Source of the DNA: Caldicellulosiruptor owensensis OL
GTDB lineage: Bacteria; Bacillota; Thermoanaerobacteria; Caldicellulosiruptorales; Caldicellulosiruptoraceae
Assembly (NCBI RefSeq): GCF_000166335.1
Contig: NC_014657.1
Span: forward strand, 2,152,501-2,216,500
DNA: 64,000 nt
Reading direction: 5' to 3'
The position numbers and the translations under genes were made by a program. Below the pieces are notes generated by a model. That model did not search any database. It saw only the letters and a list, made by a program, of their open reading frames with translations, and had not been told where the DNA came from. Below are positions 11,945 to 62,854 of this stretch, one piece after another; position 1 is the first letter of the stretch, and every line of letters begins with the position of its first letter.

Positions 11945-12111
11945 AAAACATAAGCCTTTTTTCTTCCTGCCTTTGTCCCAGAAGTTGCCTTCCGGGGTTT
12001 GTAGCAGAAAGTTACGAGGAAAAAGGCCAAACCCCGCTGGGGCATCCGCCGAAAACCTCGATTCTCCCCAGTCCTCGTCAACCCTTGATCTTTATCAAGG
12101 GTCCTGGCGCT
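11945..12111 (-). ncRNA. glmS ribozyme (glucosamine-6-phosphate riboswitch)
   Basis: On the minus strand the leader contains the hallmark AGCGCCAGGAC at the 5' end (AGCGCC at 12111-12106). Next come a P2-type hairpin with arms ACCCTTGAT / ATCAAGGGT, GACGAGG, a tract ATCGAGGTTTTCGGCGGATG and pairing GCCCCAG. A P3/P4 region then runs down to about 11945. By family knowledge the RNA self-cleaves before the G of GCGCC when GlcN6P binds, that is between 12111 and 12110. This lowers glmS expression when product is plentiful. The 3' boundary is approximate. Confidence 0.93.
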
Positions 12112-12155
12112 TTTGAAGAAAACCCGTTTCCAAAAATCTTTTTTTAAAATCTTTC

Positions 12156-57984: not shown

Positions 57985-58119
57985 TATATACTTGAAAAAG
58001 GTAAGATACACTGGACCAACAGGGGCGACTTCCATGAAATTGTAGAGGTCTTAGAAGACACAACAATGCTTTTGTTAGAAGGTCCTCTGATGGGTAAAAG
58101 ACGAAAAGGGCATCAGTAA
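57985..58119 (+). pseudogene. Possible gene remnant or small ORF of about 44 codons
   Basis: The frame open from 57985 ends at TAA 58117-58119 with ...LEDTTMLLLEGPLMGKRRKGHQ-like composition (acidic helix, then a basic tail). It has no in-frame start with a ribosome binding site. It lies immediately upstream of the riboswitch promoter. It may be the tail of a lost gene. I do not recognise the family. Confidence 0.25.
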
Positions 58120-58137
58120 TGAACCATAAATAAGGTA

Positions 58138-58166
58138 TTGAAAAGGCTTTGGTTTTACTGTAAAAT
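58138..58166 (+). promoter_or_regulatory. Promoter of the Mn2+-riboswitch operon
   Basis: The -35 TTGAAA (58138-58143), a 17-nt spacer and the -10 TAAAAT (58161-58166) would start transcription near 58173, about 38 nt before the aptamer. Confidence 0.6.
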
Positions 58167-58210
58167 AATAAATAGCCTTTGGATAAAAACTAAAAATATG
58201 TTCTGCTCTT

Positions 58211-58325
58211 TGTTAAAAGGGAGTAGCACCAATAGCCTTGTCCTCAACATTCGCGAGAAAGGTATTTTAAAAAGACCTTTCTCTGGGGATAAGGGCCCAA
58301 AATAGGGTGTGCGAGACTTTTAACA
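58211..58325 (+). ncRNA. yybP-ykoY manganese riboswitch aptamer
   Basis: P1 pairs TGTTAAAAG (58211-58219) with CTTTTAACA (58317-58325). The conserved loop GGGAGTAGC (58219-58227) and the 3' junction GTGCGAGAC (58309-58317) face each other, and GTCCTCAA then TTCGCGAGA with TCTCTGGGGA make the P3/P4 arm. These match the yybP-ykoY family, which binds Mn2+ and turns expression on. The next gene, a P-type cation ATPase, is a known target class for this family. Confidence 0.9.
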
Positions 58326-58359
58326 TGTGATTCACCGTCACATGTTAAAAGTCTTTTTT
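58314..58359 (+). terminator. Riboswitch-controlled intrinsic terminator
   Basis: The 17-bp perfect stem (58314-58330 with 58338-58354) has a 7-nt loop and a T-run. Its 5' arm contains the 3' strand of aptamer P1, so P1 and the terminator exclude each other. That gives an ON switch with Mn2+. Confidence 0.92.
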
Positions 58360-58465
58360 ATTTGTCTTTAAAAAAATTTTGCAAAACCCATAATAGTTTT
58401 GTCAGCAGTTTTAAAACACTTCAAAAGCACCTCAAAAACACTTTTGAAAAAGGAGGGATTTGAGC

Positions 58466-61123
58466 TTGAATCAAAATTTTTCTGATTTTCACTCTAAAAC
58501 TGTAGAGACCGTTTTGGAAAATCTCAAAACAAGTTTAAGCGGACTTTCCTTTGAAGAGGCAGAAGAAAGACTTAAAGTGTATGGAAAAAATATAATCGAA
58601 GAAGGAAAAAAGAAATCTATATTTGCTCTTTTTCTGGAACAATTCAAGAATGTAATGGTACTTGTACTTTTTGCTGCTGCTATAATCTCAATTCTTCTCG
58701 GTGAGGCAGCTGATGCCGCAATCATCTTGGCAGTCCTTATAATCAACGCAGTCTTTGGAGTTGCCCAAGAACTAAAGGCTGAAAAAGCAATTGAAGCTCT
58801 CAAGAAACTTAATATGCCATATGCAAAAGTTTACAGGGATGGACACCTGATGCAAATTAAAACTGATGAAATAGTAGTTGGCGATATAATTGAGATTGAA
58901 GCAGGGGATATTGTTCCAGCAGACTTGAGGCTCATTGAAAGCTTCAATCTTAAAATTGATGAGTCAGCTTTAACTGGAGAATCTGTCCCCGTTGAAAAAG
59001 ATGCAAATGACGTTCTTGACCAGTCAACACCTCTTGCAGAAAGAACAAATATGGCTTTCATGGGAACAATTGTGACATATGGTCGAGCAAAAGGCGTGGT
59101 TGTTTCAACAGGCATGAAAACAGAGATAGGCAAAATTGCAAACTTTGTCAACCTCCAATCTGCAATTGATACTAAAACTCCTCTTCATGAAAAGTTAGAA
59201 GAAATGGGGAAATATCTTACAGTTGGAATTCTGGCAATTGCATTTATAGTGTTTGTGACAGGGCTACTTTACAGACGAGATGTATTTGAAATGTTTTTGA
59301 CAGCTGTGTCATTGGCTGTTGCTGCAATCCCTGAAGGACTTCCTGCTGTTGTCACAATTGTTTTGGCAATTGGTGTTCAAAGAATGGCAAAACGAAATGC
59401 TATAATAAGAAGACTATCTTCGATTGAAACATTAGGAAGAGTAGAAGTTATTTGTTCTGACAAAACTGGGACACTTACTCAAAACAAGATGAATGTTGTG
59501 AAAGTCTATTGTAATGATAACTTGAGTGAAAATCTCGAACATGAAGATAATGCAACTAAAACCCTACTTCAGATAATGGCACTTTGTAATGACGTCAAAC
59601 TGGATTTGGTTGACAAACAACCTCAGTTTATAGGTGACCCTACCGAAATTGCCTTGGTAAAATTTGCTTATGAAAAGGGATTTAACAAAAACGCCATCGA
59701 AAAGGTTTTTAAGAGAGTATATGAAGTACCTTTTGATTCTGTCAGAAAAATGATGACAACTGTGCATGAGATTAAAAATGACCAAAAACTTCTGGTGTTT
59801 TCTAAAGGTGCTGTTGATGTGATAATCAATAAATGTAAATTCATAATGGTAAATAATGAAATACTTCCTCTTGACGAAAATACACACCAAAAAATCTTGC
59901 AGGCAAACAAAGAAATGTCCTCCAATGCGCTCAGAGTATTAGCTTTTGCTTACAAAGAAATTGATAAAAATGAGTTAGAAGATAAAAATACTATTGAAGA
60001 CAACCTCATCTTTATAGGACTTATTGGAATGATTGACCCGCCAAGAAAAGAAGCTTATGGAGCAGTTGAGGTTTGCTACCAAGCAGGAATAACACCTGTG
60101 ATGATAACAGGAGATCATAAAGATACAGCTTTAGCCATTGCAAAAGAATTAAAGATAATTGATACAAGCAAAGATGAACTTTCACAAGTTTTGACAGGTA
60201 CTGAAATTGAAAAATTAGATGACCAGCAGTTAAAAGAAAAAGTAAAAGAAGTGAGAGTATATGCAAGAGTCTCTCCTGAGCACAAATTAAGAATTGTAAG
60301 CAGCTGGAAAAGCCATGGTAAAATTGTTGCTATGACAGGCGATGGAGTTAATGATGCACCTGCTTTGAAGGCTGCCGACATTGGAATTGGTATGGGAATA
60401 ACCGGAACTGATGTTACCAAAAATGTATCTGATGTTATTTTGGCAGATGATAACTTTGCCACAATTGTTGCAGCTGTTGAAGAAGGAAGAAAGATTTATG
60501 ACAATATACGAAAAACCATACAATTTTTGCTTTCTTCAAATATTGGAGAGGTCGTAACATTGTTCTTTGCAACACTTTTAAACTGGGTAGTATTGTATCC
60601 AATTCATATCCTGTGGGTAAATCTTGTGACTGACACTTTCCCTGCTTTGGCACTTGGTATGGAAAAAGCAGAAAGTGACGTAATGAAGAGAAAACCAAAG
60701 AAAACTTCAGAAAATATATTTGCAGGTGGACTTGGCTTTTCAATCCTGTATCAAGGTTTTCTAAAAGGCTTGATAACATTATTGGTATTCTTTATTGGAA
60801 ACAAATTATATGGCCACCAAACTGCCATCACTATGACTTTCATGACGCTCAGCCTCATACAACTTACTCATGCATACAATGTGCGTTCAAACATTAATTC
60901 GCTATTCAAAATGGGTGTATTTTCAAACAAATATTTAAATCTTGCTTTTATAGCCTCGTTTTTGCTTCAGGTTGTAGTTTTAATAGTTCCTCCATTAAGG
61001 GAGTTATTTAAATTGTCATACCTCAATTTTTCACAGTGGACAATCGTAATTGTTGCCTCACTTTCTATTATCCCTATTGTGGAAGTTGTAAAGTATTTCA
61101 CACGGCACTTCCACAAAGAATAA
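58466..61123 (+). CDS. P-type cation-transporting ATPase (P2A, Ca2+/Mn2+ type)
   Basis: The 886-residue pump, counted from TTG 58466 (GGAGGG 8 nt upstream; TTG 58460 is too close), has the actuator motif TGES, TM4 with AAIPEGLPAVV as in SERCA/PMR1 ATPases, phosphorylation site DKTGTLT with D332, and hinge TGDGVNDAPALK. The family moves Ca2+ and often Mn2+ out of the cytoplasm. The yybP-ykoY riboswitch points to Mn2+ export when Mn2+ is high. About ten helices are visible, with a C-terminal four-helix block. Substrate assignment is inference. Confidence 0.93.
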   Translation: MNQNFSDFHSKTVETVLENLKTSLSGLSFEEAEERLKVYGKNIIEEGKKKSIFALFLEQFKNVMVLVLFAAAIISILLGEAADAAIILAVLIINAVFGVAQELKAEKAIEALKKLNMPYAKVYRDGHLMQIKTDEIVVGDIIEIEAGDIVPADLRLIESFNLKIDESALTGESVPVEKDANDVLDQSTPLAERTNMAFMGTIVTYGRAKGVVVSTGMKTEIGKIANFVNLQSAIDTKTPLHEKLEEMGKYLTVGILAIAFIVFVTGLLYRRDVFEMFLTAVSLAVAAIPEGLPAVVTIVLAIGVQRMAKRNAIIRRLSSIETLGRVEVICSDKTGTLTQNKMNVVKVYCNDNLSENLEHEDNATKTLLQIMALCNDVKLDLVDKQPQFIGDPTEIALVKFAYEKGFNKNAIEKVFKRVYEVPFDSVRKMMTTVHEIKNDQKLLVFSKGAVDVIINKCKFIMVNNEILPLDENTHQKILQANKEMSSNALRVLAFAYKEIDKNELEDKNTIEDNLIFIGLIGMIDPPRKEAYGAVEVCYQAGITPVMITGDHKDTALAIAKELKIIDTSKDELSQVLTGTEIEKLDDQQLKEKVKEVRVYARVSPEHKLRIVSSWKSHGKIVAMTGDGVNDAPALKAADIGIGMGITGTDVTKNVSDVILADDNFATIVAAVEEGRKIYDNIRKTIQFLLSSNIGEVVTLFFATLLNWVVLYPIHILWVNLVTDTFPALALGMEKAESDVMKRKPKKTSENIFAGGLGFSILYQGFLKGLITLLVFFIGNKLYGHQTAITMTFMTLSLIQLTHAYNVRSNINSLFKMGVFSNKYLNLAFIASFLLQVVVLIVPPLRELFKLSYLNFSQWTIVIVASLSIIPIVEVVKYFTRHFHKE

Positions 61124-61140
61124 TTTCAAAAACATTGTCA

Positions 61141-61168
61141 GGCAAAGACCATTATACAGGTCTTTGCT
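61141..61168 (+). terminator. Weak terminator hairpin after the P-type ATPase
   Basis: GCAAAGACC and GGTCTTTGC form a 9-bp stem with an 8-nt loop; the T-run is poor. The -35 box TTGACA of a next promoter follows directly (TTGACA-18-TATTCT). Confidence 0.5.
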
Positions 61169-61233
61169 TGACACTTTTTATTTGGTAGTAGTATTCTTAT
61201 TAAGAAACATTAACAAAAGAAAGGGATGACAAA

Positions 61234-62241
61234 ATGGTAGCCGGATATGTCTTAAAACTGATTATTTCTCTATTTGTAATACTTTTGGGATGTACCTTTT
61301 TTACAAATGCTGTTGAATGGTTTGGAAAAAAGCTAAAACTTGCCGAGGGAGCAGTTGGAAGCATTTTAGCTGCGGTTGGCACAGCTTTGCCAGAAACTAT
61401 TATACCCATTATTGCTATTCTTTTTTCAAAGGGTGAAAGTTCTCACCAAGTTGGAATTGGTGCAATTGCCGGTGCACCTTTTATGCTGGGAACACTTGCT
61501 TTTTTCATAACAGGGGTGGCAGTTATAGTTTACACATTGCTTAAAAAAAGAACCCTAAAAATGAATGTTGACCTGAGTGTGTTTGAAAGAGACCTTACCT
61601 ACTTTATGATTGTCTATGGCATTGCTGTTGCCACAACGTTTATACACAACCATAAGGTTATAAGAACAATAATTGCCATTACTCTTTTTGCTGCTTATCT
61701 TATCTATGTAAAAAAGACACTTGCGGATGAGTCTGAAAATGAAGAAACTGAAGAGCTTGAAGAGTTGTATTTCGCAAAATTTTTAAAACTGCCAAATAAC
61801 CTTTTGTTTATATGTGTTCAGTTTATTTTTTCACTTTCTATAATAATCTTTGGTGCACACCTTTTTGTTGAATATGTCCAGAAAGTTGCCACTTTGATTG
61901 GAATCTCAGCACTTGTTCTTTCAATCATCATCACACCAATTGCAACAGAGCTTCCTGAAAAGCTGAATTCTGTAATATGGATTGGCAAGAAAAAAGACAC
62001 CCTTGCAATTGGAAACATAACAGGTGCTATGGTGTTCCAGTCATCTGTCCCTGTTGTTTTTGGTATAATCTTTACACCCTGGAACTTGAAAGGAATTACA
62101 ATGGTATCTGCGATTTTGGCTTTTTCGTCTACTGTTTTAAATCTTTTGTGGGTTAAAATTAGAAAGAATGTCAATCCATTTACACTTTTGTTTGGTGGAG
62201 TACTGTATCTTATATTTATAGCTTATGTTTTCTGGATATAA
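61234..62241 (+). CDS. CaCA-family sodium/calcium exchanger-like membrane protein
   Basis: The 335-residue protein has about ten helices and two inverted alpha repeats: GSILAAVGTALPET near residue 42, and ITPIATELPEKLNS in the second half. Acidic and polar residues of these repeats coordinate cations in the family. It exchanges Ca2+ (or a similar cation) for Na+ or H+. AAAGGG precedes the ATG. It follows the P-type ATPase by 110 bp, with a hairpin and a promoter in between, and the two probably form a cation-export set. Confidence 0.9.
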   Translation: MVAGYVLKLIISLFVILLGCTFFTNAVEWFGKKLKLAEGAVGSILAAVGTALPETIIPIIAILFSKGESSHQVGIGAIAGAPFMLGTLAFFITGVAVIVYTLLKKRTLKMNVDLSVFERDLTYFMIVYGIAVATTFIHNHKVIRTIIAITLFAAYLIYVKKTLADESENEETEELEELYFAKFLKLPNNLLFICVQFIFSLSIIIFGAHLFVEYVQKVATLIGISALVLSIIITPIATELPEKLNSVIWIGKKKDTLAIGNITGAMVFQSSVPVVFGIIFTPWNLKGITMVSAILAFSSTVLNLLWVKIRKNVNPFTLLFGGVLYLIFIAYVFWI

Positions 62242-62311: not shown

Positions 62312-62854
62312 ATGAGTGATAGGGAAATACTGGAATTAATACTGGAAAAGGTTACTGTGCTTGACCAAAAGGTTGACAGGCTTGAAAAGAGGGTCGAAAG
62401 CCTTGAAAAGAAAGTTGAAAGCCTTGAAAAGAGAGTTGAAAACCTTGAAAAGAAAGTTGAAGCCCTCGAAAGGAGAGTTGAAAGCCTCGAAAGAAGAGTT
62501 GAGAGTCTCGAAAGAAGAGTTGAAAGCCTTGAAAAGAGAATGGATGCACTTGAGGCAAGAGTTGAAAGGTTAGAATTGCAGGTTGCAGAAAACACTCAGA
62601 TTCTAAAAGCCTTGGAGCACTTAGCACAGGTAAACAAAGCAGAACATGACAATTTTACTCATCAGCTTGCACGGATTGAAGGCCTACTTTCTTCTGAGAT
62701 ATCGAAAAATAAAGAAGAACATCAGATGCTTTTTGTTAAAACCGAAGAAAATTCTGAAAAGATAACAAGGCTTGAAAAAGACATGGTTGTAATCGAATCT
62801 GTTTGCGGAAAGAATATGCAAGATATAGCTTTTTTGAAGGGTGTGAAGAATTAA
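62312..62854 (+). CDS. Coiled-coil protein encoded by 21-bp repeats
   Basis: The 180-residue soluble protein consists mostly of heptads of the form VESLEKR (ten consecutive heptads from residue 21 to 90), then a second helical segment containing LEHLAQVNKAEHDNF and KITRLEKD. This is a long parallel coiled coil of trimer/dimer type with a Leu in each heptad. It has no signal peptide, membrane segment or known domain. AAGGAG lies 8 nt upstream of the ATG. It resembles tail-fibre or scaffold stalks, but function is unknown. The DNA repeats themselves are nearly identical. Confidence 0.8.
   Translation: MSDREILELILEKVTVLDQKVDRLEKRVESLEKKVESLEKRVENLEKKVEALERRVESLERRVESLERRVESLEKRMDALEARVERLELQVAENTQILKALEHLAQVNKAEHDNFTHQLARIEGLLSSEISKNKEEHQMLFVKTEENSEKITRLEKDMVVIESVCGKNMQDIAFLKGVKN
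62372..62581 (+). repeat. Ten tandem 21-bp repeats inside the coiled-coil gene
   Basis: Units of the form GTTGAAAGCCTTGAAAAGAGA run head to tail with 60-95% identity by eye. Several neighbouring units are nearly identical, so the array can change length by slippage without breaking the frame. Confidence 0.85.

Follow-up and report, generated by a model that had tools for sequence, protein, structure and literature searches.

Riboswitches of the yybP-ykoY family (RF00080), exemplified by those of Lactococcus lactis and Xanthomonas oryzae, sense Mn2+. In the mechanism described for the class, Mn2+ docks loops L1 and L3, which stabilizes helix P1.1, blocks the terminator and leads to read-through (PMC6754395, PMC11087558). 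An invariable discriminator adenosine in L3 corresponds to A41 in L. lactis and A48 in X. oryzae (PMC6754395). A precedent in Streptococcus is the Mn-sensing riboswitch of MgtA, a Mn2+/Ca2+ ATPase (Martin et al. 2019, as cited in PMC9331361).

The DNA analyzed here, hereafter the window, is a stretch of 64,000 nucleotides from Caldicellulosiruptor owensensis OL, and its positions 58212-58324 (+) form a yybP-ykoY (Mn2+) aptamer. Like the L. lactis and X. oryzae examples, it carries the L1 and L3 landmarks with the discriminator adenosine, its P1.1 overlaps an intrinsic terminator, and a gene for a metal exporter, here a predicted one, lies downstream. Unlike these examples, it has an AG/CU P1.1, a longer P3.1, no P2 hairpin and an RF00080 score below detection. 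As with the Streptococcus MgtA switch, the gene behind the element is for a P-type ATPase proposed to export Mn2+/Ca2+, although the window pump comes from a different Bacillota lineage and its transport role is predicted. A literature search found no report joining Caldicellulosiruptor with yybP-ykoY. The element genuinely belongs to a known riboswitch class, is ordinary for that class and sits where one would predict it; the standard model overlooks it.

Architecture and conservation of the aptamer

The original prediction had placed a yybP-ykoY aptamer at 58211-58325. The class is borne out by a match to a covariance model built here (R1, see below), by covariation and by invariant loops, and the position agrees to within 1-2 bases, with a model match at 58212-58323 and a P1.1-closed aptamer at 58212-58324. 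Helices P1.1, P1.2, P3, P3.1 and P4 were all found around the two loops, on the forward strand. Alignment and fold define the switch helix P1.1, made of a 5′ strand GUUAAAAG (58212-58219) and a 3′ strand CUUUUAAC (58317-58324), the latter common to the terminator. The 5′ strand of L1, GGAGUA (58220-58225), invariant in 13 family sequences, is followed by the 5′ strand of P1.2, GCAC (58226-58229), which pairs with 58309-58312, and by the 5′ strand of P3 (58236-58245), which pairs with 58285-58294 and shows two-sided changes in five pairs. The 5′ strand of L3, AACAUUCGC (58246-58254), leads into the hairpins P3.1 (58255-58283, pairing 58255-58262 with 58276-58283) and P4 (58295-58308, pairing 58295-58298 with 58305-58308), both identified from alignment and fold. 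The fold then places the 3′ strands of P1.2 (GUGC) and L1 (GAGA) at 58309-58316.

Conservation was assessed in two alignments, one of 13 family sequences including the diverged copy L027 (A3) and one of the canonical set (A2). The L1 motif GGAGUAGC (58220-58227) and the closing GCRAGAC (58311-58317) are both present and are invariant or R-variable in A3, as in A2. The landmarks are those of RF00080 matches from other Bacillota, namely GGAGUAGC after the P1.1 5′ strand and the discriminator CA in L3, along with GG at the opposite side of P3.1 and GCGAGAC ahead of the P1.1 3′ strand. The L3 5′ strand is invariant in A3; within it, A58249, the counterpart of the discriminator adenosine (PMC6754395), sits in CAACAUUC and is kept in 13/13 family sequences. 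Two differences from most canonical sequences lie in P1.1 and L3. The P1.1 pairs beside L1 are AG/CU rather than GG/CC, a G-C to A-U replacement changed on both sides, and L3 has one base more before P3.1. Because of this extra base and the A-U pair, the affinity or selectivity of the aptamer could differ from the canonical one. P2 is likewise missing in short-linker RF00080 members, such as L032, which scores above the RF00080 cut-off.

The folding z-score was -8.7 when the terminator was included and -4.0 when most of it was left out. Under the proposed structure, 99.1% of the cells in A3 are paired, as against 36-61% for slid versions. Nine pairs in A3 changed on both sides, compared with a shuffle mean of 1.2, and none of 500 shuffles reached nine; these changes are spread over P1.1, P3, P3.1 and P4 alike but represent few events, since most of them come from L027. 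In A2, two-sided changes were found in 20 of the 23 pairs. The riboswitch was found in all 13 genomes of the family.

Detection by covariance models

The original prediction proposed cmsearch with the yybP-ykoY model as a check and took a lack of hits over 58200-58330 as its refutation. RF00080 as distributed in Rfam 15 gave no match, which taken literally is that refuting outcome; R1, built from other families, scored 42.8 bits. RF00080 found nothing at gathering level, nothing at E<=10 in 401-base or 131-base stretches over the element or in the whole genome, and nothing at E<=1 in the copies of six relatives or in the second copy, L027. Permissive matches of other Rfam families over the element (PyrR, miRNA and sRNA families) were all far under their curated scores and were rejected as chance.

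R1 was built from 27 sequences found by RF00080 in other bacterial families, with none from the family of the window. Its match to the window had an E-value of 2.7e-9 in 108 kb and of 5.8e-8 genome-wide, both rough owing to a shortened calibration; the next genome-wide match, among the part of the candidates that was scored, reached 15.2 bits. With R1, every one of 37 genomes from the class yielded a member. Across 199 Bacillota genomes, it found members in 128 at E<=0.01, as against 6 genomes with RF00080 matches above the model's own cut-off and 69 with matches at E<=1. The ATPase leaders L128 and L132, with R1 scores of 60.5 and 57.8 bits, were also missed by RF00080. Given that R1 finds the window element, that 128 rather than 6 of the 199 genomes have members, and that L128 and L132 are missed, we read the negative RF00080 result as a failure of sensitivity, that is, a false negative. 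The curated score of RF00080, below which the window aptamer falls, is an operating threshold of the database and not a property of the RNA, and the same disparity in genome counts led us not to use it to decide membership. The A-U change in P1.1 is not by itself the reason for the miss, as L051 has the same pair and is found by RF00080. A search for the pattern GGGAGTAGC-N20-40-TCAAC gave no match in the genome, which says nothing about the element because the gap in the window itself, 16 bases, lies outside the pattern. The Rfam 15 model of the Mn2+ riboswitch thus misses many likely members in Bacillota.

Expression platform and proposed switching

The anticipated promoter, TTGAAA-N17-TAAAAT, lies upstream of the aptamer at 58138-58166 (+) and is kept in 13 of the 14 loci compared. 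The intrinsic terminator with its T run (58313-58359, +) is present in all 14 loci, L027 included. Its hairpin (58313-58355) comprises 19 pairs, 17 of them Watson-Crick, and TTTTTT follows at 58354-58359. The hairpin starts in the L1 3′ strand, and its 5′ arm (58313-58331) encloses the whole P1.1 3′ strand (58317-58324), an overlap found in 14/14 loci. The aptamer and the terminator are therefore mutually exclusive. This agrees with the original prediction of a 17-bp terminator sharing the 3′ strand of P1, the length being 17-19 bp; the ON-type expression platform, which shares this strand of the switch helix, is likewise supported.

These observations make it highly probable, in our assessment, that 58212-58359 is a Mn2+-sensing yybP-ykoY riboswitch that acts by transcription antitermination and controls a Mn2+-exporting P2A ATPase. 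Class membership, structure, conservation and the geometry of promoter and terminator are established by the sequence comparisons made here. By analogy with the riboswitch family, the ligand would be Mn2+, the switch would turn expression on, and the pump would carry the same ion. Transcription would start near 58173. At high Mn2+, L1 and L3 would dock round a Mn2+ ion contacted by A58249, whose role as discriminator follows by homology from the class mechanism, and P1.1 (GUUAAAAG/CUUUUAAC) would be kept closed. With its 3′ strand thus withheld from the terminator, transcription would proceed into the P2A ATPase gene. At low Mn2+, the same strand would enter the 17-19 bp terminator and transcription would end near 58359. 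The ATPase, once made, would export Mn2+ and perhaps Ca2+ too.

Nearest-neighbour energies, which disregard tertiary contacts and folding during transcription, put the contribution of P1.1 at about -7.6 kcal/mol at 37 °C, falling to about -0.6 at 75 °C, where the terminator hairpin by itself still has about -7.4. These estimates suggest a possible reason for the metal to be important when the temperature is high. The arrangement is very likely an ordinary case of a Mn2+ ON switch for a P2A ATPase.

Cation transport genes downstream

The two genes predicted to follow were identified as such. A P2A cation ATPase is encoded at 58460-61123 (+), starting at TTG 58460 or, judging by the spacing from the ribosome binding site AGGAGG (58451-58456, +), at TTG 58466. 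It scores 732.2 bits with TIGR01116 (cut-off 703.4) and matches PF00122, PF00689, PF00690 and PF13246. Family models name it a calcium ATPase, and its closest solved relative, aligned over the whole length, is the calcium ATPase LMCA1 (Listeria lmo0841). The window enzyme carries a SERCA-like NxGE in TM5 and NLVTD in TM6, whereas LMCA1 has NLGA and NLVND. Among the best 28 homologues outside the genus in a sample of the phylum, 15 have an R1 match upstream, close by in 14 cases and about 0.9 kb away in L180. No GDT1/UPF0016 or TerC proteins were found in the genus genomes, and a weak MntP match occurs in 11 of 12 of them. As a result, the ATPase is a main candidate for Mn2+ efflux in the genus. 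The riboswitch thereby assigns a likely control signal and a likely substrate, Mn2+, to a pump named for calcium.

The second gene encodes a CaCA-type cation exchanger (61234-62241, +), with PF01699 (Na_Ca_ex) repeats in two stretches at 87.5 bits (cut-off 24.9). Since it scores 84.6 with the calcium/sodium antiporter model TIGR00367, whose cut-off is 179.65, it was not filed under that family. The sodium/calcium exchanger NCX_Mj belongs to the same CaCA fold family, with weak similarity (E 1.1e-6). The window protein has ATELPEK and GNITGAMVFQS where NCX_Mj has GTSLPEL and GNVIGSNIAD.

Alternative readings of the locus

The absence of an Rfam match would fit a plain terminator with unrelated upstream hairpins that resemble a riboswitch by chance. 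We give this reading practically no credence in view of the low genome-wide E-value obtained with a model from other families, the covariation and invariant loops, and the persistence of the structure, with changed stems, in L027, a second copy at another locus. It is also very improbable, though less so, that the element shares the fold while this family variant reacts chiefly to a different divalent ion, for instance Ca2+ or Co2+/Ni2+. The L3 and P1.1 changes are specific to the family, and both the ATPase and the exchanger fall in families named for calcium, as such a response would have it; against it, the discriminator adenosine and the loop landmarks are invariant, and canonical switches elsewhere precede the same ATPase and exchanger families. 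Moreover, a sister-genus genome with the variant switch also has a canonical switch before a gene of UPF0016, a family under Mn2+ control almost throughout (PMC7380456).

If the element is taken as a Mn2+ switch, its reach along the strand has also to be considered, as the original prediction raised a Mn2+/Ca2+ export operon of ATPase and exchanger. Among the genus members compared, the two genes are adjacent and share a strand, and 4 of 11 of these lack an intergenic hairpin, which would suit a two-gene operon. In the window, however, a terminator-like hairpin of 15 pairs with a T run (61136-61173, +) stands between the genes, and the exchanger has a promoter of its own, TTGACA-N18-TATTCT (61168-61197, +), which is identical or almost identical in all 11 of the compared members of the genus. 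The two genes sit at separate loci in the sister genus, each behind its own switch. Control of both genes as one operon thus seems unlikely: with this promoter and hairpin ahead of the exchanger, co-transcription is not indicated, and a transcript shared with the ATPase is doubtful. Membership of the exchanger in the same Mn2+ regulon is nevertheless likely, as separate Mn switches directly precede its sister-genus orthologue and homologues elsewhere.

An exchanger subfamily behind Mn2+ riboswitches

The exchanger orthologue of the sister genus (genome G012), 74% identical, is encoded at a different locus, immediately downstream of a variant switch of its own. This copy of the switch, L027, scores 35.2 bits with R1 and does not appear among the genome-wide R1 matches, for which part of the candidates was scored. 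Comparison of coordinates by hand revealed at least 14 exchanger homologues directly behind Mn switches, spread over 14 genomes from 9 other genera. They share the signature GTALPE, GAPFM, ATELPEK and GNITGAMVFQS. Homologues without a switch carry it as well, which means that Mn2+ cannot be predicted from the signature alone. In Bacillota, exchangers with ATELPEK and GNITGAMVFQS, the subfamily of the window gene (61234-62241), were repeatedly seen directly behind Mn2+ riboswitches, as at L027, L140, L147, L148, L150, L153 and L166.

A review lists five classes of Mn exporters, with no CaCA type among them (PMC9331361), and our literature search found no report of CaCA-type Mn exporters; the association may have been noticed earlier elsewhere. 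From these genomic neighborhoods, we put at roughly even chances that the ATELPEK/GNITGAMVFQS subfamily of CaCA proteins is a Bacillota Mn2+ exporter class that has repeatedly become linked to Mn2+ riboswitches. This subfamily, as a candidate for Mn2+ export, is the only new lead of the present analysis and is worth following.

Other observations

The canonical Mn2+ switch of the sister genus (L078, 1060-1290 on contig 1 of G012) scores 70 bits and precedes a UPF0016/GDT1-family gene; no gene of that family was found in the genus of the window. Upstream of the promoter, at about 57990-58120 (+), the window contains what looks like the remnant of a small gene (GDFHEIVEVLEDTTMLLLEGPLMGKRRKGHQ) with a broken frame; several relatives (L003, L004 and L006) have a longer open version of it upstream, possibly a cupin. 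The sole Rfam match above cut-off in the window is a glmS ribozyme riboswitch at 11954-12122 (-), with 93.2 bits. Beyond the exchanger gene, 62312-62854 (+) encodes a coiled-coil protein containing tandem heptads of the SLEKRVE type, whose number seems to vary among genus members.
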